From positions 3,431,001 to 3,495,000 of the forward strand of contig NZ_LT859959.1 of assembly GCF_900176205.1 (NCBI RefSeq): a stretch of 64,000 bases of DNA. The letters run 5' to 3'. Below, one piece after another: positions 17,545 to 64,000 of the stretch. The stretch's first letter is position 1. Every line of letters begins with the position of its first letter. The stretch comes from Bradyrhizobium sp. ORS 285 (GTDB lineage Bacteria; Pseudomonadota; Alphaproteobacteria; Rhizobiales; Xanthobacteraceae). The position numbers and the translations under genes are program-made. The notes under the pieces are model-generated. The model saw only the letters and a program-made list of their open reading frames with translations. It ran no database searches and was not told the origin of the DNA.

Positions 17545-20500
17545 ATGAGCGTCTCCGAACCCTTCATCCGCCGGCCTATCGCGACGTCGCTGCTCGGCGT
17601 CGCGCTGCTGATCGGCGGCCTGCTCGGCTATCTCGCACTGCCGGTGTCGGCGCTGCCGCAGGTCGATTTCCCGACGGTCCAGGTGACGACCCAGCTCCCG
17701 GGGGCCAGCCCCGACGTGATCGCCTCGCTGATCACCGCGCCCCTCGAGCGCCAGCTCGGGCAAATCCCGTCGCTGTCGCTGATGAACTCGACGAGCTCGT
17801 TTGGCGTCAGCCAGATCTCGCTGCAGTTCGATCTCGGGCGCGACATCGACGGCGCCACGCAGGACGTGCAGGCCGCGATCAATGCAGCCGCAGGCGTGCT
17901 GCCGAAGTCGCTGCCCTATCCGCCGACCTATGCCAAGGTCAATCCGGCCGACGCGCCGGTGATGACGCTCGCATTGACCTCCGACACGATCTCCCTGCGC
18001 GCCATGAGCGACATGGCCGACACCATTCTGGCGCAGCGGCTGAGCCAGGTCTCCGGCGTCGGCCGTGTGTCCGTGCTTGGCGGATTGAAGCCCGCGGTGC
18101 GGGTGCAGGCTGATCTCGCGCGGCTCGCGGCCTACGGCATCTCGATGGAGGACCTCCGCGCGGCGATCGCCGGCGCCAATGTCTCCGGTCCCAAGGGCTC
18201 GCTCGACGGCGCGCAGCAGGCCTATCTGATCACGGCGAACGACCAGATCGCCGCCGCCGACGCCTACAAGCCGATCATCATCGCCTATCGCAACGGCTCT
18301 CCGGTGACGATCGGCGACGTCGCCACCATCGTCGACGGGCTGGAGAACGACCGCACTGGCGGCTGGTACCAGGGCGTCCCGGCCGTCATCCTCGACATCC
18401 AGCGCCAGCCCGGCGCCAATGTCATCGAGGTCGTCAGGCAGATCCGGGAGGAGATCCCCAAGCTGCAGCGGACGATCCCGGCCGGCGTGAAGCTCGCCAT
18501 CGTCAGCGACCGCACCGTGACGATCCGCGCCTCGGTGCATGACGTGCAGTTCACGTTGGTGCTGAGCGTGGTGCTGGTGACGCTGGTCGTGCTGCTGTTC
18601 CTGCGCTCGATGCGCGCCACGATCATCGCCGGCGTGGCGCTGCCGCTGTCGCTGATCACGAGCTTCGGCGTGATGTATTTCGCCGGCTTCAGCCTCGACA
18701 ATCTCTCGCTGATGGCACTGACGATCGGCACCGGCTTCGTGGTCGACGACGCCATCGTGATGATCGAGAACATCGTGCGCCACATGGAGAATGGCGAGAG
18801 CGCGATGAACGCGTCTCTGCGCGGCGCACGCGAAATCGGTTTCACCGTGATCTCGCTGACGGTGTCGCTGATCGCGGTGTTCATCCCGCTTTTGTTCATG
18901 TCCGGCCTGGTCGGCCGCATGTTCCGCGAATTCGCGCTGACGCTGACGATTGCCGTGGTGACATCGGCGGTGGTTTCGCTGACCCTGACGCCGATGATGT
19001 GCTCGCGGCTGCTCAAGCATGCCAGCGAGGAATGGGTGCTGCCGGGACTGAACGCCATCAGCCGCTTCATCGACCGCACCGTCGCCGTCTACCACCGCAG
19101 CCTGCTCTGGGTGCTGGACCGCCAGACCGAAACGCTGGTCGTGACCTTCGCGACGCTTGCGGCGACCCTGGCGCTCTATATCGTCGCGCCCAAGGGCTTC
19201 CTGCCGATGCAGGACACCGGCTCGATCACCGCCGTGACCGAGGCGGGGCCGGACGTGTCGTTCGCGGAGATGAGCCGGCGCCAGTCCGAGATCTCCGCCG
19301 CGATCCAGGCCGATCCCGACGTCGTCGGTGTCGTCTCGGTGATCGGCGCCGGCTCGGTCAACCCGACCACCAATGTCGGCCGCCTCGTCCTGACCTTGAA
19401 GCCGCTCGGCGAGCGCAAGGAGGGCGTGGCCGACGTGATCGAGCGGCTGAAGCAGAAGATCTCCGGCGTCCCCGGCATGACCGTGTACTTCCAGCCGGTG
19501 CAGGACGTGCAGATCTCGACGCAGGCGAGCCGCTCGCAATATCAGTACACGCTGACCGGCGCGGACGCCGCCGAAGTGTCGAAATGGGCCGGGCAGCTCG
19601 TGGCCGAGATGCGCCGTGACCCGCTGTTCCGGGACGTCTCCTCGGAAGCTCAGGAAGGTGGTCTGCGGGCCGATCTGACGATCGATCGCCAGCGCGCCGG
19701 CCAGCTGGGCATCAGCCTGCAGGCCGTGACCGACACGCTCAACGACGCCTTCGCCCAGCGCCAGATCTCCACCATCTACGGCCAGGCCAACCAGTACCGC
19801 GTGGTGCTCGAGGCGCTGCCGATGTATCAGCGCGATCCCTCGATCCTGTCCAAGCTCTATCTGCCGGGAGCAGGGGGGCAGGTGCCGCTGTCGGCGGTGG
19901 CGACCCTCAAGCGCACCACGACGCCGCTCGCGATCTCGCACCAGGCCCAATTCCCGGCGGTGTCGCTCAGCTTCAATCTCGCGCCCGGCGCGGCGCTGAG
20001 CGAGGCGGTGGACGCGCTCCACGCCACCGAGAACCGCATCGGCATGCCCGGCAGCATCATCGGGGTCTACTCGGGCGATGCCGCCGAGTTCGCCAAATCG
20101 CTGGCCGGTCAACCCTGGCTGCTGCTGGCCGCCGTCATCACGATCTACATCGTCCTCGGCGTGCTTTATGAGAGCTACATCCATCCGATCACGATCCTCT
20201 CGACGCTGCCCTCGGCCGGCGTCGGCGCCATCCTGGCGCTGATGCTGTTCGGTCAGGATCTGTCGGTGATCGGTCTGATCGGCATCATCCTGCTGATGGG
20301 CATCGTCAAGAAGAACGCGATCATGATGATCGATTTCGCGCTCGAGGCGGAGCGGCACGAGAACCGCACGCCGACCGACGCGATCGTGCAGGCCTGCCTC
20401 TTGCGCTTCCGGCCGATCATGATGACGACGCTGGCCGCGCTGTTCGGCGCGCTGCCGCTGGCGATCGAGAGCGGCACCGGCTCGGAGCTGCGCTTTCCGC

Positions 20501-53683: not shown

Positions 53684-53695
53684 TCCCGAACACAT

Positions 53696-53718
53696 CTCCC
53701 CCGACGAGGTCGGGGGAG
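53696..53718 (+). terminator. Hairpin after ntrC
   Basis: CTCCCCCGAC (53696-53705) pairs perfectly with GTCGGGGGAG (53709-53718) around a GAG loop, 12 bases after the ntrC stop. It is a strong 10-bp stem but lacks a T run. It may end the dusB-ntrBC transcript in a factor-assisted way. Confidence 0.6.
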
Positions 53719-53869
53719 ACCGCCTGCCAATCAGGCGCAGTGCGACCGCGGCTCGCAGCACAAGCCCGCACTCAAAGCACTCGTCAGCACGGCACACGTC
53801 GGCACCCCTCAGGGCGCAGATGCGTCTTTGCGCGTGCTCGGAGGGGCTCGGCATGCCGTTTCCATAAAA

Positions 53870-53884
53870 TGAAACGTCGTTGCA
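53870..53884. promoter_or_regulatory. Palindromic operator upstream of the MFS-amidohydrolase operon
   Basis: TGAAACG-T-CGTTGCA: the two halves are inverse except for one base (TGnAACG/CGTTnCA). It lies 76 bases before the MFS start. The same 17-base text, TGAAACGnCGTTGCATT, occurs at 60561 with one difference. Length and symmetry suit an IclR-family site. The regulator gene is at 61434. Confidence 0.6.
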
Positions 53885-53960
53885 TTCGTATTCTTCGTCC
53901 CCTATGGTGCCCGCAAGCTTGGCCGGCAGACGGCCCAACAAGGCACCACGGAGGAACGGA

Positions 53961-55280
53961 ATGGACAGCGTGGCTGCGCGCGCGGCGCCGGCATTCGACA
54001 TCACGCCGACGATGCGCAAGGTGATGCGACGCATCATCCCGTTCATCTTCGTCTGCTACGTCGTCAGCTATCTCGACCGCATCAATGTCGGCTTCGCCGG
54101 CCTGCAGATGAACCGCGATCTCGGCCTGACGCCGTCGCAGTTCGGCTGGGGCGCCGGGCTGTTCTTCCTCGGCTATTTTCTCTGCGAGATCCCCAGCAAC
54201 CTGATGATGCAGCGCGTCGGCGCGCGGCTGTGGATTGCGCGGATCATGATCACCTGGGGCCTGCTGTCGACGCTGACCTGCCTCGTCACCGGCCCGGTGA
54301 GCTTCTCGGCGATGCGCCTCCTGCTCGGCATGGCGGAGGCCGGCTTCACGCCGGGCGTGTATCTCTATTTCACCTACTGGTTTCCTGGCGTCTGGCGCGG
54401 CCGCGCGACGGCCGCCTTCCTGGTCGGCATTCCCGTCGCCAACATGATCGGCTCGCCGGTCTCGGGGGCGCTGCTGACGATGGACGGCTTTGCCGGCCTT
54501 GCCGGGTGGCAGTGGCTGCTGATCATCGAGGGGCTGCCGGCCGTGCTGCTCGGCATCGCCTGCCTGTTCGTGCTCTCGGACCGTCCGGGCGAGGCCAAAT
54601 GGCTCGATGCCGACGAGCGGCGCGAGCTCGATGCGCGATTGACGGCGGAGCAGGCGACGCTCTCCGCCCGCCACGGCAACACACTCCGCGATGCCTTTGC
54701 CAATCCGAAAGTGTTCGTGCTGGCGCTGGTGAATTTCTGCGGCATCTGCGGATCGCTCGGCGTCGGTCTGTGGCTGCCGCAGATCGTGCGCGGCTTCGGC
54801 GTCAGCTATGTCGCCGTTGGATTCATCTCCGCAGCTCCCTACGCGCTAGGGGCGGTCTGCATGCTGCTCTGGGCGCGCCTGGCCAATCGCGCCCGCCATC
54901 GGCTGTGGTTCGTCTGCGGCGCGCTGGCGACCGCAGGTGTGGCGCTTTCGGTCAGCGCGAGCTTCGCGTCGCCGCTGCCGGCCATGCTGGCGCTGACGGT
55001 GACCGTGGTCGGCATCCTGTCGTTCCAGGCGACCTATTGGGCGATTCCATCCGGCTTCCTGACCGGACGCGCGGCAGCGGCCGGGCTCGCGCTGATCGTG
55101 TCGGTCGGCAATCTCGGCGGCTTCGTCGGTCCCTACATGATCGGCTATCTGCGCGAGACGACGAAGAGCTTCTCGGCGCCGCTTTATGTCCTCTCCGCGA
55201 TCCTGCTTGTCGGGACCGCCGTGATGTTCGCGCTCGGCGACCCCGCCCGCGACACAGCCTCAGCAAAGGAGATCGCATGA
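53961..55280 (+). CDS. MFS transporter, anion:cation symporter (ACS) type
   Basis: A 439-residue major facilitator protein with 12 predicted helices. YVVSYLDRINVGFAGLQMNRDLGL in the first helix and loop (core YLDRINVGFA), EIPSNLMMQRVGAR, and MAEAGFTPGVYLYFTYWFP are marks of the ACS family, which takes up organic anions such as phthalate, tartrate, glucarate and similar acids with H+. ATG 53961 has a perfect GGAGG site; the frame upstream is not used. The stop overlaps the amidohydrolase start by 4 bases. It is the first gene of the catabolic island inserted after ntrC and has an operator in front. Confidence 0.9.
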   Translation: MDSVAARAAPAFDITPTMRKVMRRIIPFIFVCYVVSYLDRINVGFAGLQMNRDLGLTPSQFGWGAGLFFLGYFLCEIPSNLMMQRVGARLWIARIMITWGLLSTLTCLVTGPVSFSAMRLLLGMAEAGFTPGVYLYFTYWFPGVWRGRATAAFLVGIPVANMIGSPVSGALLTMDGFAGLAGWQWLLIIEGLPAVLLGIACLFVLSDRPGEAKWLDADERRELDARLTAEQATLSARHGNTLRDAFANPKVFVLALVNFCGICGSLGVGLWLPQIVRGFGVSYVAVGFISAAPYALGAVCMLLWARLANRARHRLWFVCGALATAGVALSVSASFASPLPAMLALTVTVVGILSFQATYWAIPSGFLTGRAAAAGLALIVSVGNLGGFVGPYMIGYLRETTKSFSAPLYVLSAILLVGTAVMFALGDPARDTASAKEIA

Positions 55281-56206
55281 TCACCCGCCGCCGCCTGTTG
55301 GCAGCCGGCGCCGTCGCCGCGATGGGCGTCCGGACTGCAGCCGCCGACACCGTGCCCAACTCGGCCGGCTCGGAGCCGCCCAAGCTCAAGGCGCCGGCCA
55401 ACGCCTGCGACAGCCATCACCACATCTACGACGCGCGTTTCCCGGTCTCGCCGCACTGGCGCGGCGGGCGGCCGGACGGCGCAACGGTTGCCGACTATCG
55501 GCTGTTGCAGAAGCGGCTCGGCGTGGTGAGGCATGTGATCGTGCAGCCCTCGACCTACGGCGTCGACAACCGCTGCCTGCTCGACGCGCTCGATCAGTTC
55601 GGCGCGGAGGCGCGCGGCATCGTCGTCATCGACGAGACCATCGATGATGCCGAGTTGAAGCAGATGGACCAACGCGGCGTCCGCGGCGTCCGCGTCAACT
55701 TTCTGACGCCGCAATCCTGGGGCGTCACGACGGCGGAGCGGCTGGAGCAGACTGCGAAGCGGATCGCGCCGCTCGGCTGGCATGTTCAGGTCCTGATGTC
55801 CGGCGATCAGATCGCGCAGCACGAGGCCGTGCTGGCGGCGCTGCCGGTGCCGGTCGTGTTCGACCATCTCGGACGCATCCCGCAGCCGATCGGCCTGGCG
55901 CATCCCGGCGCGCAGGCGATGCTGCGTCTCGCGGACAAAGGCCGCGGCTGGATCAAGCTGTCGGAGCCCTATGCCGACACCAAGGTCGGTCCGCCGGACT
56001 ACACGGACACGAGCGCGGTGGCGCGCGCCTGCGTGCAGGCGGCACCGGACCGGGTGATCTGGGGCAGCGACTGGCCGCATCCGACCGAAAAGGAGAAGCC
56101 GGACGATTCGCTGCTGTTCGACCTGTTGTCGAGCTGGGCGCCGGATGCTGCGATTCGCGAGAAGATCCTGGTCGGCAATCCGGCGCGGCTGTTCGGCTTT
56201 GCCTGA
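55277..56206 (+). CDS. Tat-exported amidohydrolase (COG3618, pyrone-dicarboxylate lactonase-like)
   Basis: A 309-residue TIM-barrel metallohydrolase of the amidohydrolase_2 family. The N-terminus ITRRRLLAAGAVAAMGVRTAAA is a Tat signal, so the enzyme should act in the periplasm. The metal-binding HxH is in ACDSHHHIYDARFP, and the C-terminal Asp is in VIWGSDWPHPT. The closest characterised types are 2-pyrone-4,6-dicarboxylate lactonase and related lactone hydrolases; export is unusual for those. It is paralogous to 57134-58075 and is translationally coupled to the MFS gene. The substrate is not known. Confidence 0.85.
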   Translation: MITRRRLLAAGAVAAMGVRTAAADTVPNSAGSEPPKLKAPANACDSHHHIYDARFPVSPHWRGGRPDGATVADYRLLQKRLGVVRHVIVQPSTYGVDNRCLLDALDQFGAEARGIVVIDETIDDAELKQMDQRGVRGVRVNFLTPQSWGVTTAERLEQTAKRIAPLGWHVQVLMSGDQIAQHEAVLAALPVPVVFDHLGRIPQPIGLAHPGAQAMLRLADKGRGWIKLSEPYADTKVGPPDYTDTSAVARACVQAAPDRVIWGSDWPHPTEKEKPDDSLLFDLLSSWAPDAAIREKILVGNPARLFGFA

Positions 56207-56216
56207 CGCGAGGGCG

Positions 56217-57137
56217 TCAGGCGTGCGAATACATCGGCAATCCCGGCGTCTCGAGATCGGCGCGAAGGATCGAGCCGGTCCGGCTCTCGGTGATGAAGAG
56301 GCTGCGATTGTCCGGGCCGCCAAAGGCGAGATTGGTGGTGCCGACGCCAGCACATGAGACGATGCGGTCGAGCGGCTCGGCGACAGGCGAGACACGCCAG
56401 ACTGATCCGAAGCCGGTGTGACAGATCAGGAGATTGCCGTTGCGATCGAGCGCGAGGCCGTCGGGTCCACCGGGACCGCCGTGCAGGTTCACGAACACGC
56501 CGACCTTGGTGGTGATGCCGCTCGCCGGCAGCGGAATGCGCCAGACCTGGTTGGCGCGGGTGACGGCGACCAGCAGGAACGTCTCCTCGGGGTCGACCAC
56601 GATGCCGTTCGGGCTCGGGATCGTGTTGACAAGACAACTCAGCCGACCGTCGGTGTCGAGCCGCCAGACACGGCCAGTCGGATCGTGCATGCCGGTCTGG
56701 CCCTGATCGGTGAAATACAGCGTGCCCGAGCGTCCGAACACCAGATCGTTCACACCCTTGAAGCTTTCGGTTGCAGCGGTCTCCAGGAACGGCGTCACCC
56801 GGCCGCTGCTGGGATCGAGCAGCATGAGGCCGCGCTTGTAGTCGGTGATGAAGATGCGGCCATCAGCATGGATCTTGAGCCCGTTGGGCCAGCCGTCATA
56901 TTCGCTGATCAGCGTCCACGTGCCGTCGGGATCGATCCGGAAGATGCGGCCGAACGGAATGTCGGTAACGTAGAGCCGGCCCTGGCGGTCGAAGGAGGGG
57001 CCTTCGAGAAAGCTGTCGATGGCGCGGCCGCCTTGGTTGGCGTCGGCCCAGGCGCTGCGCTGGGGCTTGCGGAAATGATCCGGCAGCCGGGTGAAGACCT
57101 GCGTGTCGACGCGGCGCGGCGGTGCGAACCAGCTCAT
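56217..57137 (-). CDS. SMP-30/gluconolactonase/LRE family protein
   Basis: A 306-residue six-bladed propeller. Residues expected to bind the divalent metal are seen as Glu in SFLEGPSFD, Asn in FKGVNDLVF and SPNGIVVD, and Asp in GPDGLALDRNG. These enzymes open lactone rings of sugar acids and related compounds. There is no signal peptide, so it acts in the cytoplasm. Its ATG overlaps the stop of the upstream amidohydrolase by 4 bases. It is the last gene of the leftward operon 60427 to 56217 and meets the rightward operon tail to tail with only 10 bases between. Confidence 0.88.
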   Translation of the reverse strand: MSWFAPPRRVDTQVFTRLPDHFRKPQRSAWADANQGGRAIDSFLEGPSFDRQGRLYVTDIPFGRIFRIDPDGTWTLISEYDGWPNGLKIHADGRIFITDYKRGLMLLDPSSGRVTPFLETAATESFKGVNDLVFGRSGTLYFTDQGQTGMHDPTGRVWRLDTDGRLSCLVNTIPSPNGIVVDPEETFLLVAVTRANQVWRIPLPASGITTKVGVFVNLHGGPGGPDGLALDRNGNLLICHTGFGSVWRVSPVAEPLDRIVSCAGVGTTNLAFGGPDNRSLFITESRTGSILRADLETPGLPMYSHA

Positions 57138-58075
57138 GTCGGAAATCCATAGAGTTCGGCGGGCGAGTCGACCAGGACCCGCTGCAAGGTCGCCTGGTCC
57201 GGCATCGCGTTAGCCATCAGGTCGAACAACTCCGCATCATCGGGTTTGTCCTCCGCCTTGCGGGTGGGATGCGGCCAGTCGCTGCCCCACACCATCCGCT
57301 CGGGAGCCGCGCGAACATAGGCCGCCGTGATCGCGGCGCTCTCGGCAAAAGGCGACCGGCTGCTGAGGTAGGCGCCCGACAGCTTGACCCAGGTGTTACC
57401 CTTGTCGAGCAGCCGGCGAATGATCGCATAGGACGGGCTTTTGACTCCCTCGGCCGGCAAGGCCCCGAGATGATCGATCACGATCCGCGACGGCAGGCGC
57501 AGCAGCATGTCCTGCGCGGCCTCGAGCTGCTGCGGGCGCATGTTGATCTCGCAGTGCCAGCCGAGCGCCGCAAGCCGCGGCGACAGCTTTTCGAGCGAGC
57601 CGACCGACAGCGGGCCGGGGAAGGGCAGGTTGAAGCGCACGCCACGCGCCCCGAGCGCGTCGAGCCGTTTCAGCTCGGCGTCTGACACGTCCTCGGCGAC
57701 GACGGCCACCATGCGGAAGTTATCGGCGCCGAGCGCCTTCATCGACGCGAGTTGCAGGCTGTTGTCGGTGCCATAGGTCGACGGCGTCACGAGCACGCCG
57801 CGGGTGGTGCCGATCCGGCGCTGCAGCGCCTTGTAGTCGTCAGGCGACGCGTCGGGCGGCGTCAGCGCGGCGCCCGGCGTCGTCGGATAGCTGGCGTCGT
57901 AGGTGTGGAAATGGCAGTCAGTCGCGCGCGGCGGCACCTTGCTGGCGGGCGGCGCGGTCCCCGCCGACCAACGCACGGCGTCGGCGGATTGGCTCCATGT
58001 CGAGCGGGGCAGGGTGGCGAGCGTCGCGGCGCCGAACAGCAGGCCGCGCCGCGAGAGCTGAGAGACTTGTCCCAT
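57134..58075 (-). CDS. Tat-exported amidohydrolase (COG3618), second copy
   Basis: A 313-residue TIM-barrel metallohydrolase. LSRRGLLFGAATLATLPRS is a Tat leader. The HxH motif is in ATDCHFHTYDASYP, and the C-terminal metal Asp is in MVWGSDWPHPT. It resembles the 55277-56206 protein throughout (both have PSTYGxDN and DAELKxxDxxGxRGVR) but is clearly diverged. It follows the MFS gene by 1 base and overlaps the SMP-30 gene. The presence of two exported copies suggests either two related substrates or two steps outside the inner membrane. Confidence 0.85.
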   Translation of the reverse strand: MGQVSQLSRRGLLFGAATLATLPRSTWSQSADAVRWSAGTAPPASKVPPRATDCHFHTYDASYPTTPGAALTPPDASPDDYKALQRRIGTTRGVLVTPSTYGTDNSLQLASMKALGADNFRMVAVVAEDVSDAELKRLDALGARGVRFNLPFPGPLSVGSLEKLSPRLAALGWHCEINMRPQQLEAAQDMLLRLPSRIVIDHLGALPAEGVKSPSYAIIRRLLDKGNTWVKLSGAYLSSRSPFAESAAITAAYVRAAPERMVWGSDWPHPTRKAEDKPDDAELFDLMANAMPDQATLQRVLVDSPAELYGFPT

Positions 58076-58076
58076 G

Positions 58077-59414
58077 TCACGCCTCCTTCGCGGCGGCCAG
58101 GATCGTCGTCTCGGTGCTACGTGACCGGCTGATGACGAGGACCAGCCCGGCGCCGATCATGGTGACGATCGCGATTGGCAGCAGCGCCAGACCATAATTG
58201 CCGGTCGCATCCAGCACGCTGCCGTAGATGTTGACCATCAGGCCGCCGCCGATCAGGTTCGACACCGCATTGATCATCGCAAGGCCTGCTGCGACCGATC
58301 CCGCACCGAGCCATCCCGACGACAGCGCCCAGAACGGGCCCTTGAAGGCATAGGCGCCGACAAGGACCAGGCTGAGCAGAATGACCGTGCCGATCAGGGA
58401 ATGGACAACGAAGACACCCAGGAAGCCGAACGAGATCAGCAGCAGCGTCAGCGCGGTGTGCCAGCGGCGTTCGCTCGTTCTGTCGGAGTGGCGGCCCCAC
58501 AGCACCATCAGCACGCAGGCCACGCCGTAGGGAATCGAGTTGATCAGGCCGGTCTCGAGGTTGGTGAGGCCGAATGACTTGAGGAACTGCGGCTGCCACA
58601 CCCCGAGCACCGATCCGGCGGCCGAGGCGCCGGAGCAGGCGAGCGCCATGGCCCAGACGATCGGGTTGCGCAGCAGATGCAGGAACGATCCCCAGCCGGT
58701 CTTGGCGGCGGCCGATGGGCGGCCCGCCTTCTCGCGGTTGAGCTCATTGCACAGCCAGGTGCGCTCGTCGTCACGCAGCCATCGTGCGTCCTCTGGACGA
58801 TCGGTCAGAATGGCGAGGCAGATCAAGCCAAGCACCACGGTAGGAACGCCTTCGACGATGAACAGCCATTGCCAGCCGCGAAGGCCGAGCAAGCCGTCCA
58901 TACCGAGCAGCAGGCCGCCGAGCGGCGAGCCAATGAAACTCGCGGCCGGGATGGAGATGCCGAACAGCGCGATCATGCGGCCGCGATAGTTCGCGGGCAG
59001 CCAGTAGGTCAGATAGAGCAGCACACCGGGAAAGAAGCCGGCCTCGGCGGCGCCGAGCAGGAAGCGCATCACGTAGAAGGAATGTTGGCCCTGCACGAAG
59101 GCCATACCGGCCGAGATGATGCCCCAGCTGATCATGATCCGCGCGATCCAGCGCCGTGCGCCAAAACGCTGCAGGGCCAGATTGCTCGGCACTTCCATGA
59201 GAAAATAGGAGAAGAAGAACAGGCTGGCACCGAACCCGAACACAGCCTTCGACATGCCGAGATCGTGCACCATCTGCAGCGACGCCATGCCGACATTGCC
59301 GCGATCGAGAATCGCGAACAGATAGCAGATCATCATGAAAGGCATGATGCGCCACGACACGCGGCGCATGGTCGTCTGTTCGAGCGCACTCGGCGCCGCC
59401 GCAGCTTCAGCCAT
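58077..59414 (-). CDS. MFS transporter, ACS type, second copy
   Basis: A 445-residue 12-helix transporter related to the one at 53961: LFAILDRGNVGMASLQMVHDLGM (core ILDRGNVGMA), EVPSNLALQRFGARRW and AEAGFFPGVLLYLTYWLP. It should import an organic acid made or released by the exported hydrolases. It is followed immediately by amidohydrolase 2 and preceded by the dehydrogenase gene (33-base gap), within the leftward operon. ATG 59414 has a GGAGG site just upstream (reading GAGGACAAC on the coding strand). Confidence 0.9.
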   Translation of the reverse strand: MAEAAAAPSALEQTTMRRVSWRIMPFMMICYLFAILDRGNVGMASLQMVHDLGMSKAVFGFGASLFFFSYFLMEVPSNLALQRFGARRWIARIMISWGIISAGMAFVQGQHSFYVMRFLLGAAEAGFFPGVLLYLTYWLPANYRGRMIALFGISIPAASFIGSPLGGLLLGMDGLLGLRGWQWLFIVEGVPTVVLGLICLAILTDRPEDARWLRDDERTWLCNELNREKAGRPSAAAKTGWGSFLHLLRNPIVWAMALACSGASAAGSVLGVWQPQFLKSFGLTNLETGLINSIPYGVACVLMVLWGRHSDRTSERRWHTALTLLLISFGFLGVFVVHSLIGTVILLSLVLVGAYAFKGPFWALSSGWLGAGSVAAGLAMINAVSNLIGGGLMVNIYGSVLDATGNYGLALLPIAIVTMIGAGLVLVISRSRSTETTILAAAKEA

Positions 59415-59446
59415 GTTGTCCTCCCAGATTGTTTGTTGGTCGTTGC

Positions 59447-60427
59447 TCAGGCGATGCTGAGCTGCTTCCTGTTGACGATCGCCCGTCGGTCGATGGTCTT
59501 GCCTTCGAGAACGTCCAAGACGTGATTGACCGCGACCACACCCATCGCATCGCGGGCTTCCTGCGTGCTGGCGCCAGCATGCGGGGTCACGACCACATTC
59601 GGCAAGGTCAGCAGTGGCAGATCGGGCCGCGCCGGCTCCTCCGCGAACGAATCCAGGCCGGCGCCGGCGATGACGCCGTCGCGCAGCGCCTCGAACAGAG
59701 CGGTCTCGTCGATCAGCCCGCCGCGGGCGGTATTGATCAGGATGGCGTTGCGACGCATGCGGGCGAGCTGGTCGCGGCCGATCATGTTGCGGGTCTGCGG
59801 CGTCAACGGGCAGTGCAGGCTGATCACGTCGCTCGCTGCGAGGATCGCATCGAGGCTGTCGACACGCTCGGCACCCGCTATTTTGGCGTCATCCGGCATG
59901 TAGGGATCGAAAATGCGCACCTTCATCTGCAGCGGCTGAACCAGGCCGACCAGGATGCGGCCGATCTCGCCGAAGCCGATCACGCCGAGGCTGCGGCCGA
60001 GCAACTGCGCCCCCTTCGTCGTCGCCTTGTCCCAATGTCCGGTCTTGATGCGCGCGTCGAGGTGAGGGATCTCGCGGGCCACAGCGAACATCAGCGCGAA
60101 GGCCAGCTCGGCGACGGATTGTGAATTGGCGCCGCGCGCAACGAACACGGGGATGCCCCGCCGGTCGGCGGCGTCGACATCGATATTGTCATAGCCGACG
60201 CCGTGCTTGGCGATCGCCTTGAGCTTCGGCGAGGCGCCGATCACCTGGTCGTCGATCTTGCCTTGCCGCACAATGATGCCGTCGGGCTGTTCGCGGGCTG
60301 CGATCTCCGCCAGCTCCTGAGGGCTCGCATATCGCGGGTTATCGACCAGCACCGCACCGCGCTGGGCAGCGATCGCCGTCGCCTCTGCGGTGAGGGCCGG
60401 GCCGGTGATGAGAAGTTTGTACCGCAT
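59447..60427 (-). CDS. D-2-hydroxyacid dehydrogenase (phosphoglycerate dehydrogenase-like)
   Basis: A 326-residue NAD(P)-dependent dehydrogenase. The cofactor fold is LGVIGFGEIGRIL. Catalytic residues are Arg in INTARGGLIDE, Glu in DSFAEEPARPDLP and His in VVTPHAGAST. AKHGVGYDNIDVDAADRRGI is the SerA-type N-terminal block. It interconverts a 2-hydroxy acid and a 2-oxo acid in the cytoplasm; the substrate follows from the cluster and is unknown. ATG 60427 is chosen over a further 9 codons of open frame. It is the first gene of the leftward operon, divergent from rraA. Confidence 0.9.
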   Translation of the reverse strand: MRYKLLITGPALTAEATAIAAQRGAVLVDNPRYASPQELAEIAAREQPDGIIVRQGKIDDQVIGASPKLKAIAKHGVGYDNIDVDAADRRGIPVFVARGANSQSVAELAFALMFAVAREIPHLDARIKTGHWDKATTKGAQLLGRSLGVIGFGEIGRILVGLVQPLQMKVRIFDPYMPDDAKIAGAERVDSLDAILAASDVISLHCPLTPQTRNMIGRDQLARMRRNAILINTARGGLIDETALFEALRDGVIAGAGLDSFAEEPARPDLPLLTLPNVVVTPHAGASTQEARDAMGVVAVNHVLDVLEGKTIDRRAIVNRKQLSIA

Positions 60428-60560
60428 GTCGCTGCCTCTGCTTGCTGGCGGCAACGCCCACCCACGGGCTCGCGATGGCGGCTCAGCCCGACCACAGCAT
60501 TGTGCTGCAGGCCCGCTCCTTGACGAGATGCTGACCGTTTCCCGCGCCGTATTTTCAAAT

Positions 60561-60575
60561 TGAAACGGCGTTGCA
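60561..60575. promoter_or_regulatory. Palindromic operator in the dehydrogenase/RraA divergent promoter
   Basis: TGAAACG-G-CGTTGCA, matching the site at 53870 except for the centre base and followed by the same ATT. It lies 134 bases from the dehydrogenase start and 86 bases from the RraA-family start, in AT-rich promoter-like sequence (ATTTTCAAAT before, TTTTTTGTAC after). A half-site TGAAACG also occurs at 61392 upstream of the IclR gene. Confidence 0.6.
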
Positions 60576-60660
60576 TTTTTTGTACGTATCGCCGCGACGG
60601 CTCATTTTGTCAACCGCCGATCGGCAGAGCCGCAGGGACGATCGCAACGAGGAGCCAGCC

Positions 60661-61341
60661 ATGACCGTCGGTTTTCGTATTTATCCAAATCCGAAGCAGA
60701 AAGTTTCCAAGGACCTGGTCGAGCGGTATCGAACGCTCCCGGTCGCCAATGTGAGCGACAGCATGTCCCGCATGACCGCCGCCGGCCCGCGGCTGCGGCC
60801 GATGCATGGCGGCGGCGTGCTCGCAGGCCCGGCGATCACCGTGAAGGCGCGCCCCGGTGACAATCTCATGCTGCACAAGGCGCTGGACATCGCGGAGCCC
60901 GGCGACGTCGTCGTGGTCGATGCCGGCGGCGACCTGTCCAACGCATTGATCGGTGAGATGATGATTGCGCATGCCGAGCGGCGCGGCCTCGGTGGTGTCG
61001 TCATCAACGGCGCCGTTCGCGATGCCGCCGCGATTCGCGCCGGCAAGTTTCCGATCTTTGCCGCTGGCGTGACCCATCGCGGCCCCTACAAGGACGGTCC
61101 CGGCGAGATCAATGTCCCGATCGCGATCGACGGCATGGTGATCCATCCGGGCGACCTCGTTCTCGGCGACGACGACGGCCTCGTCTGCGTGCCGCTCGCC
61201 GACGCTGAGGCGGTGTTCGCCGCGGCGAAGAAGAAGCATGAGGCCGAGACAGCGCAGCTCGAGGCGATCGCGGCCGGCCGCAACGACCGGTCTTGGGTCG
61301 ATGAGGAATTGAAGAAGCGCGGCGTCGAATATATGGGCTGA
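60661..61341 (+). CDS. RraA/HMG-aldolase family protein
   Basis: A 226-residue protein of the RraA fold. VANVSDSMSRMTAAGPRL and the metal/oxyanion block GEMMIAHAERRGLGGVVINGAVRD (key Arg-Asp in NGAVRDAAAI) match the G-x20-R-D/E pattern of the class II 4-hydroxy-4-methyl-2-oxoglutarate/4-carboxy-4-hydroxy-2-oxoadipate aldolases rather than the E. coli RNase regulator. Those enzymes cleave the last intermediate of protocatechuate 4,5-cleavage and gallate pathways to pyruvate and oxaloacetate or pyruvate. Given the lactonases around it, an aldolase or decarboxylase role is likely. ATG 60661 has a GAGGAG site. Confidence 0.88.
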   Translation: MTVGFRIYPNPKQKVSKDLVERYRTLPVANVSDSMSRMTAAGPRLRPMHGGGVLAGPAITVKARPGDNLMLHKALDIAEPGDVVVVDAGGDLSNALIGEMMIAHAERRGLGGVVINGAVRDAAAIRAGKFPIFAAGVTHRGPYKDGPGEINVPIAIDGMVIHPGDLVLGDDDGLVCVPLADAEAVFAAAKKKHEAETAQLEAIAAGRNDRSWVDEELKKRGVEYMG

Positions 61342-61433
61342 GCCTCTGTTCGAACGGCGTGAACTTCGCCTCGCGGATGTGTATACGATCCTGAAACGGC
61401 CGCCCGATTGGCGGCCGCTTCGGGAATCACGAC

Positions 61434-62168
61434 GTGGCGAAGAAATCGAGCACTTTGAAATCGAGCACGCGCAGCAAGACACCAAAGTCCGCGGCGCCGT
61501 CCGGCCTGAAGGGCGTCTCTGCCGTCGATCGCGCGTTGAGCATCTTGACGGCGTTTCAGCGCGGCGACGGCGAGGTCAGTCTCGCGGAGCTGACCAGGCG
61601 TACCGGACTGATCAAGACGACCGTCATGCGCATGGCGCTGTCGTTGGAAAGCTTCGGTCTGATCCGGCGCGTCGACGACGGCGGCTACCGGCTCGACGCC
61701 GAGGTGATGCGGCTCGCGGCCTGCTATCAGCACGCCTTCGGCCTCGCCGATCATGTCACGCCCGTGCTGGAGAAGCTGGCGCGCTCGACCGGCGAAACCG
61801 CTTCGTTCTACACGCGGCGGGGCGATCAGCGCCTCTGCCTGTTCCGGGTCGAAAGCGCGAACCAGATCCGGATGCACGTCCAGCCTGGCGATCTCCGCCC
61901 GATGGACAAGTCGGCCATCGCCCAGGTTCTCCGCCACTTCGACCGCGGCCGCGCTGCGGCCGAGATCGAGGTGCCGATCTTTACCAGCGGCGTCACCGAC
62001 CCGCATTCGGCGGCGCTTGCGACGCCCGTGTTCGGCCCGGGTGGTGCTTTGCTGGGCGCTCTTGCTTTATCCGGCCCGGTGACCCGGTTGACCGCGGAGC
62101 ATGCCGAGGAGATCCGGCCGCTGCTGAGGACGGCCGGGGTCGATTTGACCACGGCATGTGGCGGCTAG
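61434..62168 (+). CDS. IclR-family transcriptional regulator
   Basis: A 244-residue regulator. After a Lys/Ser-rich N-terminal 30 residues comes the winged helix: AVDRALSILTAFQRGDGEVS, LAELTRRTGLIKTTVMRMALSLESFGLIRR (core TGLIKTTVMRMALSL). The IclR ligand domain (HVTPVLEKLARSTGETASFYTRRG and SGVTDPHSAALATPVFGPGG) follows. The start is GTG 61434, 92 bases after the RraA-family gene. It is the natural candidate for binding the palindromes at 53870 and 60561, and a half-site at 61392 suggests autoregulation. Whether it represses or activates cannot be told. Confidence 0.9.
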   Translation: MAKKSSTLKSSTRSKTPKSAAPSGLKGVSAVDRALSILTAFQRGDGEVSLAELTRRTGLIKTTVMRMALSLESFGLIRRVDDGGYRLDAEVMRLAACYQHAFGLADHVTPVLEKLARSTGETASFYTRRGDQRLCLFRVESANQIRMHVQPGDLRPMDKSAIAQVLRHFDRGRAAAEIEVPIFTSGVTDPHSAALATPVFGPGGALLGALALSGPVTRLTAEHAEEIRPLLRTAGVDLTTACGG

Positions 62169-62370
62169 GGGCCAAGTCCGCCCGGCGGATGCGGGTACGA
62201 TGGTTCCAAGATACCGCCGTCCGGAAAGCGCCGCAGATGAGAAATATTGTAGACAAACCCGCGACGCGCTTCCGCGCCGTGGATTTGTCGCAATTTGGCA
62301 ACAGCGTGGTAGGAATGCATCAGTCCGATTCTTCAGGACGTGCCGCGTTCACATCACCCAATTTGCCGGA

Positions 62371-64000
62371 ATGACCAGCGCAGACACCTCGGCCACCCCC
62401 TTCGATTCGACGCCCGGCGAAAGCCGGCGCTGGACCTGGCGCACCTGGCTGGCGCCGGTGGCGGTCGGGCTCGCGCTGCTGTCGGCCTTCCTCACCTTCA
62501 TCGTGCTGGTCGGCCTGAGCCCCATCGAGCCGACGCCCGAGGTCGTTAGCACCTTCCTGCTGATCGATGCCGGAACGATCCTGATCCTGGTCGGGATCAT
62601 CATCCGCGAGGTCTGGCAGATGGTCCAGGCCCGGCGGCGCGGCCGGGCGGCGGCGCGGCTGCACGTCCAGATCGTCAGCCTGTTCTCGGTGATCGCGGTG
62701 CTGCCGGCGGTGCTGGTGTCGCTGGTCGCCAACGTCACCATCGACCGCGGCCTCGACCGGCTGTTCTCAGGACCTGCGAAAGAGGCGATCCAGAACTCGC
62801 TGACGGTCGCACGCGCCTACACCTATGAGCATGCGCAGCTGATCCGCGGCGACATCCTCGGTATGGCCAACGACATTGCCCATGCGCGGCCGCTCTATGA
62901 TCAGGACCGCGGCACCTTCCGCGAGCTGCTCACCGCCAGCGCCGCCTCGCGCAATCTGCCGGGGGCGATGCTGATCGACAAGGACCGAACGGTCCTGGAG
63001 ACCGCCGAGACCGGCATCCAACAGACCTTCCAGACGCCGCCGGCCGACTTCCTCAGCAACGTCAACGAGACCGAGCCGCAGATCGCGGTGTTCCCCGACG
63101 CCAACTACGTCGCCGCCGTGATCCGCCTGCGCGCGTTCAACGACACCTTCCTCTATGTAGCCCGGCTGCTCGATCCGCGCGTGATCGCGCAGCTCAAGCA
63201 GACCGAGACCTCGGTCGCCGAATATGCCGTGGTCGAGTCGCGCCGTCTCGGCATCCAGGTCGCCTTCGCGCTGATGTTCGCGGTGATCGCGCTGACGATT
63301 TTGATGGCTTCGGTGCTGATCGGCTTGAACTTCGCCAACTGGCTGGTGTCGCCGATCCGGCAACTGATGAATGCCGCGCATACGGTGGCGACCGGCGACC
63401 TCAACGTCCAGGTCCCCGTGCATCGCTCCGAGGGCGACCTTGCCCAGCTCGGCCAGACCTTCAACAAGATGACGCAGGAGCTGCGCACCCAGCGCGACGA
63501 GCTGGTCAGCGCCAGCGATCTGATCGACAGCCGGCGCCGCTTCATCGAGGCGGTGCTGTCCTCGGCCTCAGCCGGCATCATCGGCGTCGATGCGTCGGGC
63601 AGCGTGGGCATCCTCAACCGGTCGGCCGAGAAGCTGATCGGCCACGCCGAGCAGGAGGTGCTCGATCATCCGCTCTCCGAGGTGCTGCCCGAACTCGACG
63701 ACATGATGAAGACCGCGCGCGAGGGCAAGCAGCGGCTTGTGCAGGGACAGATCACGATCCAGCGCGACGGCCACGAGCGTAATCTGTCGGTAAGGGTCAC
63801 TGCGGAACAAACAAACCAGGCGCGCGACAGCTACATCATCACGCTCGACGACATCACCGAGCTCGTCTCAGCGCAGCGTACCTCGGCATGGGGCGACGTC
63901 GCGCGGCGGATCGCGCACGAGATCAAGAATCCGCTGACGCCGATTCAACTGTCCGCAGAGCGGATTCGCCGCAAATTCGGCAAGGTCATCACCGAGGACA
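62371..64000 (+). CDS. ntrY: Nitrogen regulation sensor kinase NtrY, N-terminal part
   Basis: A membrane histidine kinase cut by the right edge of the window; 543 codons are present. Three or four hydrophobic helices (residues 25-120 and 295-330) enclose a periplasmic sensor part. HAMP (LVSPIRQLMNAAHTVATGDLNVQV, core ATGDLNVQV) and PAS (ASAGIIGVDASGSVGILNRSAE) domains follow, and the H-box is [21 protein letters not shown] with His near residue 516. NtrY works with NtrX in nitrogen and redox control and is usually found directly after ntrBC; here 8.7 kb of catabolic genes lie between. ATG 62371 follows a CCGGA site. The 62169-62370 gap should hold its promoter. Confidence 0.95.
   Translation, partial: MTSADTSATPFDSTPGESRRWTWRTWLAPVAVGLALLSAFLTFIVLVGLSPIEPTPEVVSTFLLIDAGTILILVGIIIREVWQMVQARRRGRAAARLHVQIVSLFSVIAVLPAVLVSLVANVTIDRGLDRLFSGPAKEAIQNSLTVARAYTYEHAQLIRGDILGMANDIAHARPLYDQDRGTFRELLTASAASRNLPGAMLIDKDRTVLETAETGIQQTFQTPPADFLSNVNETEPQIAVFPDANYVAAVIRLRAFNDTFLYVARLLDPRVIAQLKQTETSVAEYAVVESRRLGIQVAFALMFAVIALTILMASVLIGLNFANWLVSPIRQLMNAAHTVATGDLNVQVPVHRSEGDLAQLGQTFNKMTQELRTQRDELVSASDLIDSRRRFIEAVLSSASAGIIGVDASGSVGILNRSAEKLIGHAEQEVLDHPLSEVLPELDDMMKTAREGKQRLVQGQITIQRDGHERNLSVRVTAEQTNQARDSYIITLDDITELVSAQRTSAWGDVARRIAHEIKNPLTPIQLSAERIRRKFGKVITED

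Follow-up and report, generated by a model that had tools for sequence, protein, structure and literature searches.

Why should eight catabolic genes separate ntrC from ntrY, two nitrogen-control genes, in Bradyrhizobium sp. ORS 285, a soil bacterium related to the legume symbionts? We analysed a stretch of 64,000 nucleotides of its genome (contig NZ_LT859959.1, positions 3,431,001 to 3,495,000; hereafter the window, whose first base is position 1), in which eight intact genes, all with open frames, lie between the ntrC stop codon (53683) and the ntrY ATG (62371). These boundaries and the number of genes had been given in the original prediction, made from the letters alone, and are borne out by the open reading frames (ORFs); the families that it named are likewise recovered by Pfam and NCBIfam models (MFS_1 twice, Amidohydro_2 twice, SGL/SMP-30, 2-Hacid_dh, RraA-like and IclR). 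Our reading of this block, to which we assign a probability of roughly 0.55, is that it is a horizontally moving, self-contained catabolic regulon, lactone-consuming and lodged between two conserved regulatory operons. This reading is carried by the occurrence of the unit in two orders, by purifying selection and by one shared type of predicted operator.

The same eight genes, in identical order, occupy the ntrC-ntrY site in the Bradyrhizobium strains SRS-191 and SSBR45G and in two genomes of our genus survey, G178 and G146. A search for the cluster as a unit elsewhere, as first proposed with the prediction, found it away from ntr in Azospirillum lipoferum Sp59b, where the eight genes again stand in identical order with no ntr match within the 20 kb of that locus. 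Finding this gene order preserved away from ntr argues that the eight genes move together. The proteins of the block are 86-96% identical within Bradyrhizobium and 72-89% identical to those of Azospirillum, with ratios of nonsynonymous to synonymous substitution (dN/dS) of 0.06-0.14 and 0.08-0.25, respectively; judged by such sequence comparison, all eight genes are under purifying selection. Silent-site distances from the window are about the same for the Azospirillum block (0.54-0.92) and the G146 block (0.55-0.98), a similarity that speaks for transfer between orders. The block seems to have arrived ready-made between the two nitrogen-control genes. In the Azospirillum locus (L045), ORFs at 17880-18593, about 6 kb from the block, look by eye like an insertion-sequence transposase.

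To follow the ntrC-ntrY interval across the genus, as the original prediction had also suggested, DNA from the ntrC end and the ntrY start was searched in 195 Bradyrhizobium genomes (136 + 59), of which 184 were scorable, with both ends on one contig and strand, and 11 were not. The gap is below 1 kb in 151 of the 184, 1-2 kb in 2 and 2-30 kb in 31. The block was found in 3 of the 195 genomes (the window genome, G178 and G146), the same three in which its IclR gene is present at 90% identity or more; this gene is matched at 60-65% in 11 further genomes and at 55% in one. Six genomes have an ntrC end at least 91% identical; three carry the block, and the others (G065, G175 and G166) have gaps of about 180 bp. 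SRS-191 and SSBR45G are additional carriers at the ntr site, and a protein search returned relatives of AH2, one of the two amidohydrolases of the block, at 86-90% in Bradyrhizobium sp. USDA 4353, B. oligotrophicum and SSBR45G. In one surveyed genome (G095, C1:4846574 and 4895356), about 48 kb separate ntrC from ntrY and the two genes are on opposite strands, so that an inversion is likely.

These counts bear on whether the block is instead an ancestral feature of the ntrC-ntrY site that most of the genus has lost. Such a history would suit the identical placement of the block in all five Bradyrhizobium carriers examined, and also its silent-site divergence, which in every carrier is higher than in the flanking genes (by a factor of about 1.3 to 1.9 in the means). 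Since that excess is found in every carrier, the excess in G146 alone is no proof of a separate arrival, and we draw no firm conclusion on separate arrivals. Against ancestry stand the scarcity of the block and the prevalence of short gaps in the survey, the empty sites of the three near relatives, and the different location in Azospirillum at 72-89% protein identity. The genus survey disfavours an ancestral block, a history that we consider highly improbable.

Aligned to the closest empty site, that of G065, the window carries extra DNA from directly 3' of the ntrC stop to about 62210 (53684..62210), and the conserved DNA upstream of ntrY is retained. By this alignment the insertion left the DNA directly upstream of ntrY intact, and nitrogen control is probably not disturbed by it. 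Directly 3' of ntrC lies an 11-bp perfect inverted repeat (53695..53719, plus strand); similar hairpins, some imperfect, are seen by eye at this position in each of the four remaining Bradyrhizobium carriers, and the empty site of G065 has none. In SSBR45G, the last 216 bp of ntrC are duplicated after the block (L046 2730-2945 and 11580-11795; copies 97.2% identical), and this second ntrC end is possibly a scar of insertion: recombination at ntrC with an illegitimate second end would yield such a duplication. The two copies resemble the other strains to about the same degree (89-93%), and the native one is therefore not distinguishable. A tidy site-specific island was considered and rejected, as the eight genes include no integrase, the two tRNAs of the window are more than 22 kb away and a flanking repeat is present in one of five carriers (SSBR45G). 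On the ntrY side, the first kilobase of the gene (62500-63499) is 81-82% identical to G178, compared with 86-95% for the greater part of the block and 89-94% beyond this kilobase; this drop suggests a recombination tract beside the block.

Other DNA also enters this junction. As a control we used a single stretch, ntrX-hfq-hflX, 4 kb away, in 70 genomes (G000-G069): 69 were matched, each as one piece or as two pieces less than about 400 bp apart by eye, giving 0 insertions in 69. A ntrC-ntrY gap of at least 2 kb is present in 12 of the 66 scorable genomes of the same set (Fisher p = 1e-4 versus control). The ntrC-ntrY junction therefore takes more insertions than the one nearby control stretch. 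Cargo was fetched from 24 further genomes, in one of which the gap measures 1.4 kb, leaving out five large inserts (G155, G161, G162, G177 and G188). By shared ORFs it sorts into 11 groups; several of these are single small inserts, and one group has no called ORF. Ten cargo proteins were scanned and comprise an RND pump, a cation ATPase, a pyridine nucleotide oxidoreductase, an MBL-fold protein, an AraC-type regulator, DUF3141, a cadherin-like protein, a trypsin-like protease, a methyltransferase and an Orn/Lys/Arg decarboxylase-like protein; none of the ten is an integrase. A search of the open-licence literature returned no paper on a ntrC-ntrY hotspot.

The block itself is organised in three units. 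The first, on the plus strand, comprises MFS1, an ACS-like MFS carrier (53961..55280), and AH1, a COG3618-type amidohydrolase (55277..56206), overlapping by 4 bp; the longest MFS1 frame opens with TTG at 53880, and its start, which may lie upstream, is probably the ATG at 53961. On the minus strand follow the PGDH-like D-2-hydroxyacid dehydrogenase DH (59447..60427), a second ACS-like carrier, MFS2 (58077..59414), the COG3618-type amidohydrolase AH2 (57134..58075) and the SMP-30/gluconolactonase-like protein SMP (56217..57137; no obvious leader by eye), with a 4-bp overlap of AH2 and SMP. The third unit, on the plus strand, joins an RraA-family enzyme (60661..61341) to an IclR-family regulator (61434..62168) predicted to bind two operators. 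The palindrome WTGMAACGNCGTTKCAW lies upstream of MFS1 (operator 1, ATGAAACGTCGTTGCAT, 53869..53885) and in the divergent DH/RraA promoter region (operator 2, TTGAAACGGCGTTGCAT, 60560..60576), so that two sites could serve all eight genes. The 7.8 Mb genome holds no other exact copy and one copy with a single mismatch, and both sites are retained with at most one mismatch in G178, G146, SRS-191, SSBR45G and Azospirillum.

We then scanned loci with more divergent clusters. At up to two mismatches, all 12 variant Bradyrhizobium loci with an IclR relative (from 11 genomes) have sites, 31 in number, as do 7 of 8 sphingomonad-like, Caulobacter and Acidocella loci (9 sites), so that 19 of 20 loci with regulator relatives carry the palindrome; all 40 sites are intergenic on our own ORF calls. 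RraA loci without an IclR relative gave 0 of 66 with a site at one mismatch or fewer and 4 of 66 at two. Six loci (L038, L039, L040, L052, L082 and L105) belong to none of these three groups; L038 and L039 were scanned and have no site. In 18 whole genomes, every exact site (10 genomes) falls in the clusters. Further operator sites were also tried as a way to the substrate and rejected, as exact sites occur only in clusters and the single-mismatch site of the window genome stands beside genes without an evident link. Resting on these predicted sites, the block looks like one IclR-controlled, self-contained regulon.

The palindrome resembles by eye the KdgR operator RWWGAAACGNCGTTTCAKKA given in Table 1 of PMC8222616. 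The KdgR-like IclR regulons of that article share with the block a local IclR regulator, a KdgR-type palindrome and an association with COG3618, a family that the article describes as often linked to IclR regulons and as too little studied. They differ in that the regulator of the block is below cut-off for KdgR (NF011671, 54 bits against 275) and other IclR equivalog models, the best NCBIfam model being BhcR (87.5 against 350). Tandem sites in the variant loci are 23 nt apart, compared with 18-22 in PMC8222616, whose main text has no occurrence of RraA or Bradyrhizobium. The operator is a new instance of this published kind, not a new type. The original prediction had foreseen the IclR regulator; it foresaw neither a self-contained regulon with a KdgR-like operator, nor the other insertions at the junction, nor that the dehydrogenase and RraA would be conserved more widely than the full gene set.

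What does the regulon degrade? The RraA-family enzyme passes the NCBIfam PRK06201 subfamily model (NF004850, titled hypothetical protein; 340 against 231 bits) and is below cut-off for the HMG/CHA aldolase models (TIGR02798, 149 against 304.5; NF006731, 164 against 179). Its best solved relative is the CHA aldolase 3noj, with which it shares the family, the R-D pair (R120-D121) and an acidic residue 21 positions before the arginine, but it has E99 where 3noj has D. Class II pyruvate aldolases of the RraA fold have a D-X20-R-D or G-X20-R-D-X2-E/D motif; the corresponding stretch here is E99-X20-R120-D121. An RraA scan of named genomes gave 385 loci, of which the best 80, those of SRS-191, SSBR45G and Azospirillum among them, were retained for all counts out of 80. 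DH accompanies RraA in 66 of these and adjoins it in 58; other enzymes near RraA that belong to hydroxyacid-oxidising families are FMN_dh (9/80), YdiJ (3/80) and DUF1932 (2/80). The variant Bradyrhizobium loci (L026-L036) have no DH in the fetched DNA; one that was scanned has a DUF1932 oxidoreductase and another a protein above the cut-off for the D-2-hydroxyglutarate dehydrogenase YdiJ, and similar ORFs recur by eye in the remaining ones. Carriers in scanned loci are of the MFS, TTT or TRAP type or a TonB receptor, and an MBL-fold protein is encoded in three loci that are sphingomonad-like or from Caulobacter. The common thread would be hydroxyacid oxidation beside RraA, accompanied at some loci by a lactonase. 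What is conserved more widely appears to be the dehydrogenase-RraA pair, not all eight genes. Two loci deserve mention in passing: in that of Caulobacter sp. RHG1 (L060 14502-15722), a 406-aa protein without a Pfam match follows the MBL-fold gene, and that titled Arthrobacter sp. TPD3018 (L054) has the gene content of the sphingomonad loci, was counted as sphingomonad-like and may be mislabelled.

The best solved relative of AH1 is LigI, the 2-pyrone-4,6-dicarboxylate hydrolase (4d8l; 100 of 269 aligned residues identical, 37%). We take H31, H33, H180 and D248 to be the metal and catalytic residues of LigI, and Y49, R124, R130, Y156, R183 and R217 to line its substrate-binding pocket. In one alignment, AH1, also of COG3618 type, retains the former set together with R124 and R183, but has G, P, L and A at Y49, R130, Y156 and R217, and it differs further from LigI in its Tat (twin-arginine)-type leader. 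These replacements disfavour AH1 as a 2-pyrone-4,6-dicarboxylate hydrolase. They also weigh against an aromatic-derived route in which exported LigI-like enzymes would open 2-pyrone-4,6-dicarboxylate or a muconolactone and RraA would be a CHA/HMG aldolase. Such a route would accord with the nearest solved relatives of AH1 and RraA, with the label 2-pyrone-4,6-dicarboxylate hydrolase that one source gives to the AH2 relative of SSBR45G, and with the frequently aromatic IclR regulons described in PMC8222616. Both amidohydrolases, however, are below the cut-off for 4-sulfomuconolactone hydrolase (NF042924; 168 and 144, against 500), as RraA is for the CHA aldolase, and the eight genes include no hydratase, tautomerase or dioxygenase; we regard this route as unlikely.

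AH2 is closest among solved chains to 4mup, which we take to be D-galactarolactone isomerase; AH2 additionally carries a Tat-type leader, and its function is predicted only. Relatives of AH2 are labelled D-galactarolactone isomerase by several sources, and the D-galactonate carrier is, with HpaX, one of the two best NCBIfam models for both MFS1 and MFS2, each below cut-off. This brings in an aldonate or aldarate lactone, for which AH2 would be a lactone isomerase, SMP a gluconolactonase-type hydrolase and RraA a 2-keto-3-deoxy-aldarate dehydratase/decarboxylase. PMC8563752 describes dehydration and decarboxylation of a 2-keto-3-deoxy-aldarate by FlDet, an RraA-family protein; the likeness to the RraA of the block is one of family. 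The resemblance of the operator to RWWGAAACGNCGTTTCAKKA of KdgR (PMC8222616) is a further point in its favour; the 54 bits of IclR with the KdgR model (cut-off 275) and the lack of a sugar-acid dehydratase or semialdehyde dehydrogenase among the eight genes count against it. We find this sugar-acid route rather doubtful as a whole; it is one branch of our preferred reading with a different last step.

For the lactone-consuming regulon that we prefer, the two exported COG3618 enzymes would act on a lactone in the periplasm by hydrolysis or isomerisation. The free acid or remaining lactone would enter through the MFS carriers, and SMP-30 would open the lactone inside the cell. DH could then oxidise a D-2-hydroxyacid to the 2-oxo acid, which RraA would split by retro-aldol cleavage or decarboxylate to pyruvate-level products, with IclR sensing an intermediate and controlling the genes accordingly. 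The simplest class of substrate would be a lactone of a 2,4-dihydroxy acid or of a sugar acid, which we favour because AH1 is without four LigI pocket residues, AH2 is nearest 4mup, RraA-family chemistry extends to that of FlDet, and hydroxyacid oxidation is the common thread. Of the pathway first sketched for these genes, the steps of lactone hydrolysis, uptake, 2-hydroxyacid redox and RraA chemistry agree with the gene set and with what surrounds these genes elsewhere; a plain 2-pyrone-4,6-dicarboxylate route is not supported, given the AH1 pocket and the kinship of AH2 to 4mup. The accompanying statement that no described pathway with exactly this combination is known agrees with our search of the open-licence literature, which found no characterised cluster of this content. 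The L-ascorbate pathway of Ralstonia eutropha H16 also brings gluconolactonase-family and amidohydrolase enzymes together; it differs in its PdxA-type decarboxylase and other enzymes, and is not known to include an RraA or a D-2-hydroxyacid dehydrogenase.

Several observations temper this reading. G+C is 0.63-0.69 across the block and about equal in the flanks, so composition does not mark it as foreign. The Acidocella locus and two loci with IclR at 43-45% have no operator site; at one mismatch or fewer, the 18 genomes hold 44 sites, 25 in clusters and 19, all with one mismatch, outside (6 with the reversed-pattern control), and two genomes have none. SMP-30 or COG3618 relatives are found within the fetched DNA of only 30 of 80 RraA loci, so a lactone step does not always accompany the core; DH is missing from 14 of 80, only two of which show another sought oxidoreductase, and contig ends shorten some loci (5 of 80 are under 9 kb). 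The twin-arginine-type leaders of AH1 and AH2 (TRRRLL and SRRGLL) were read by eye, and hydrolysis by both enzymes is uncertain because COG3618 includes isomerases. Pathway, substrate, product and the direction of DH are all predicted from genes.

Beyond the block itself, we tentatively propose, as plausible though short of probable, an undescribed pathway in which exported lactonases would supply a D-2-hydroxyacid dehydrogenase and an RraA-family aldolase of a new functional class. The dehydrogenase-RraA pair would then be a catabolic module found widely in Proteobacteria, with carriers and hydrolases that differ from case to case, that spreads between orders ready-regulated and lands in a ntrC-ntrY hotspot maintained by recombination between conserved flanks. 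The block varies a known theme, IclR-controlled catabolism of lactones or acids; the surprise, real but modest, lies in the mobility and the landing site. A defined gene set with its regulator and predicted operator offers a way to learn what a common, unassigned RraA subfamily and exported COG3618 enzymes act on, and the locus draws attention to one chromosomal site, between two nitrogen-control operons, at which Bradyrhizobium genomes have gained varied accessory genes.

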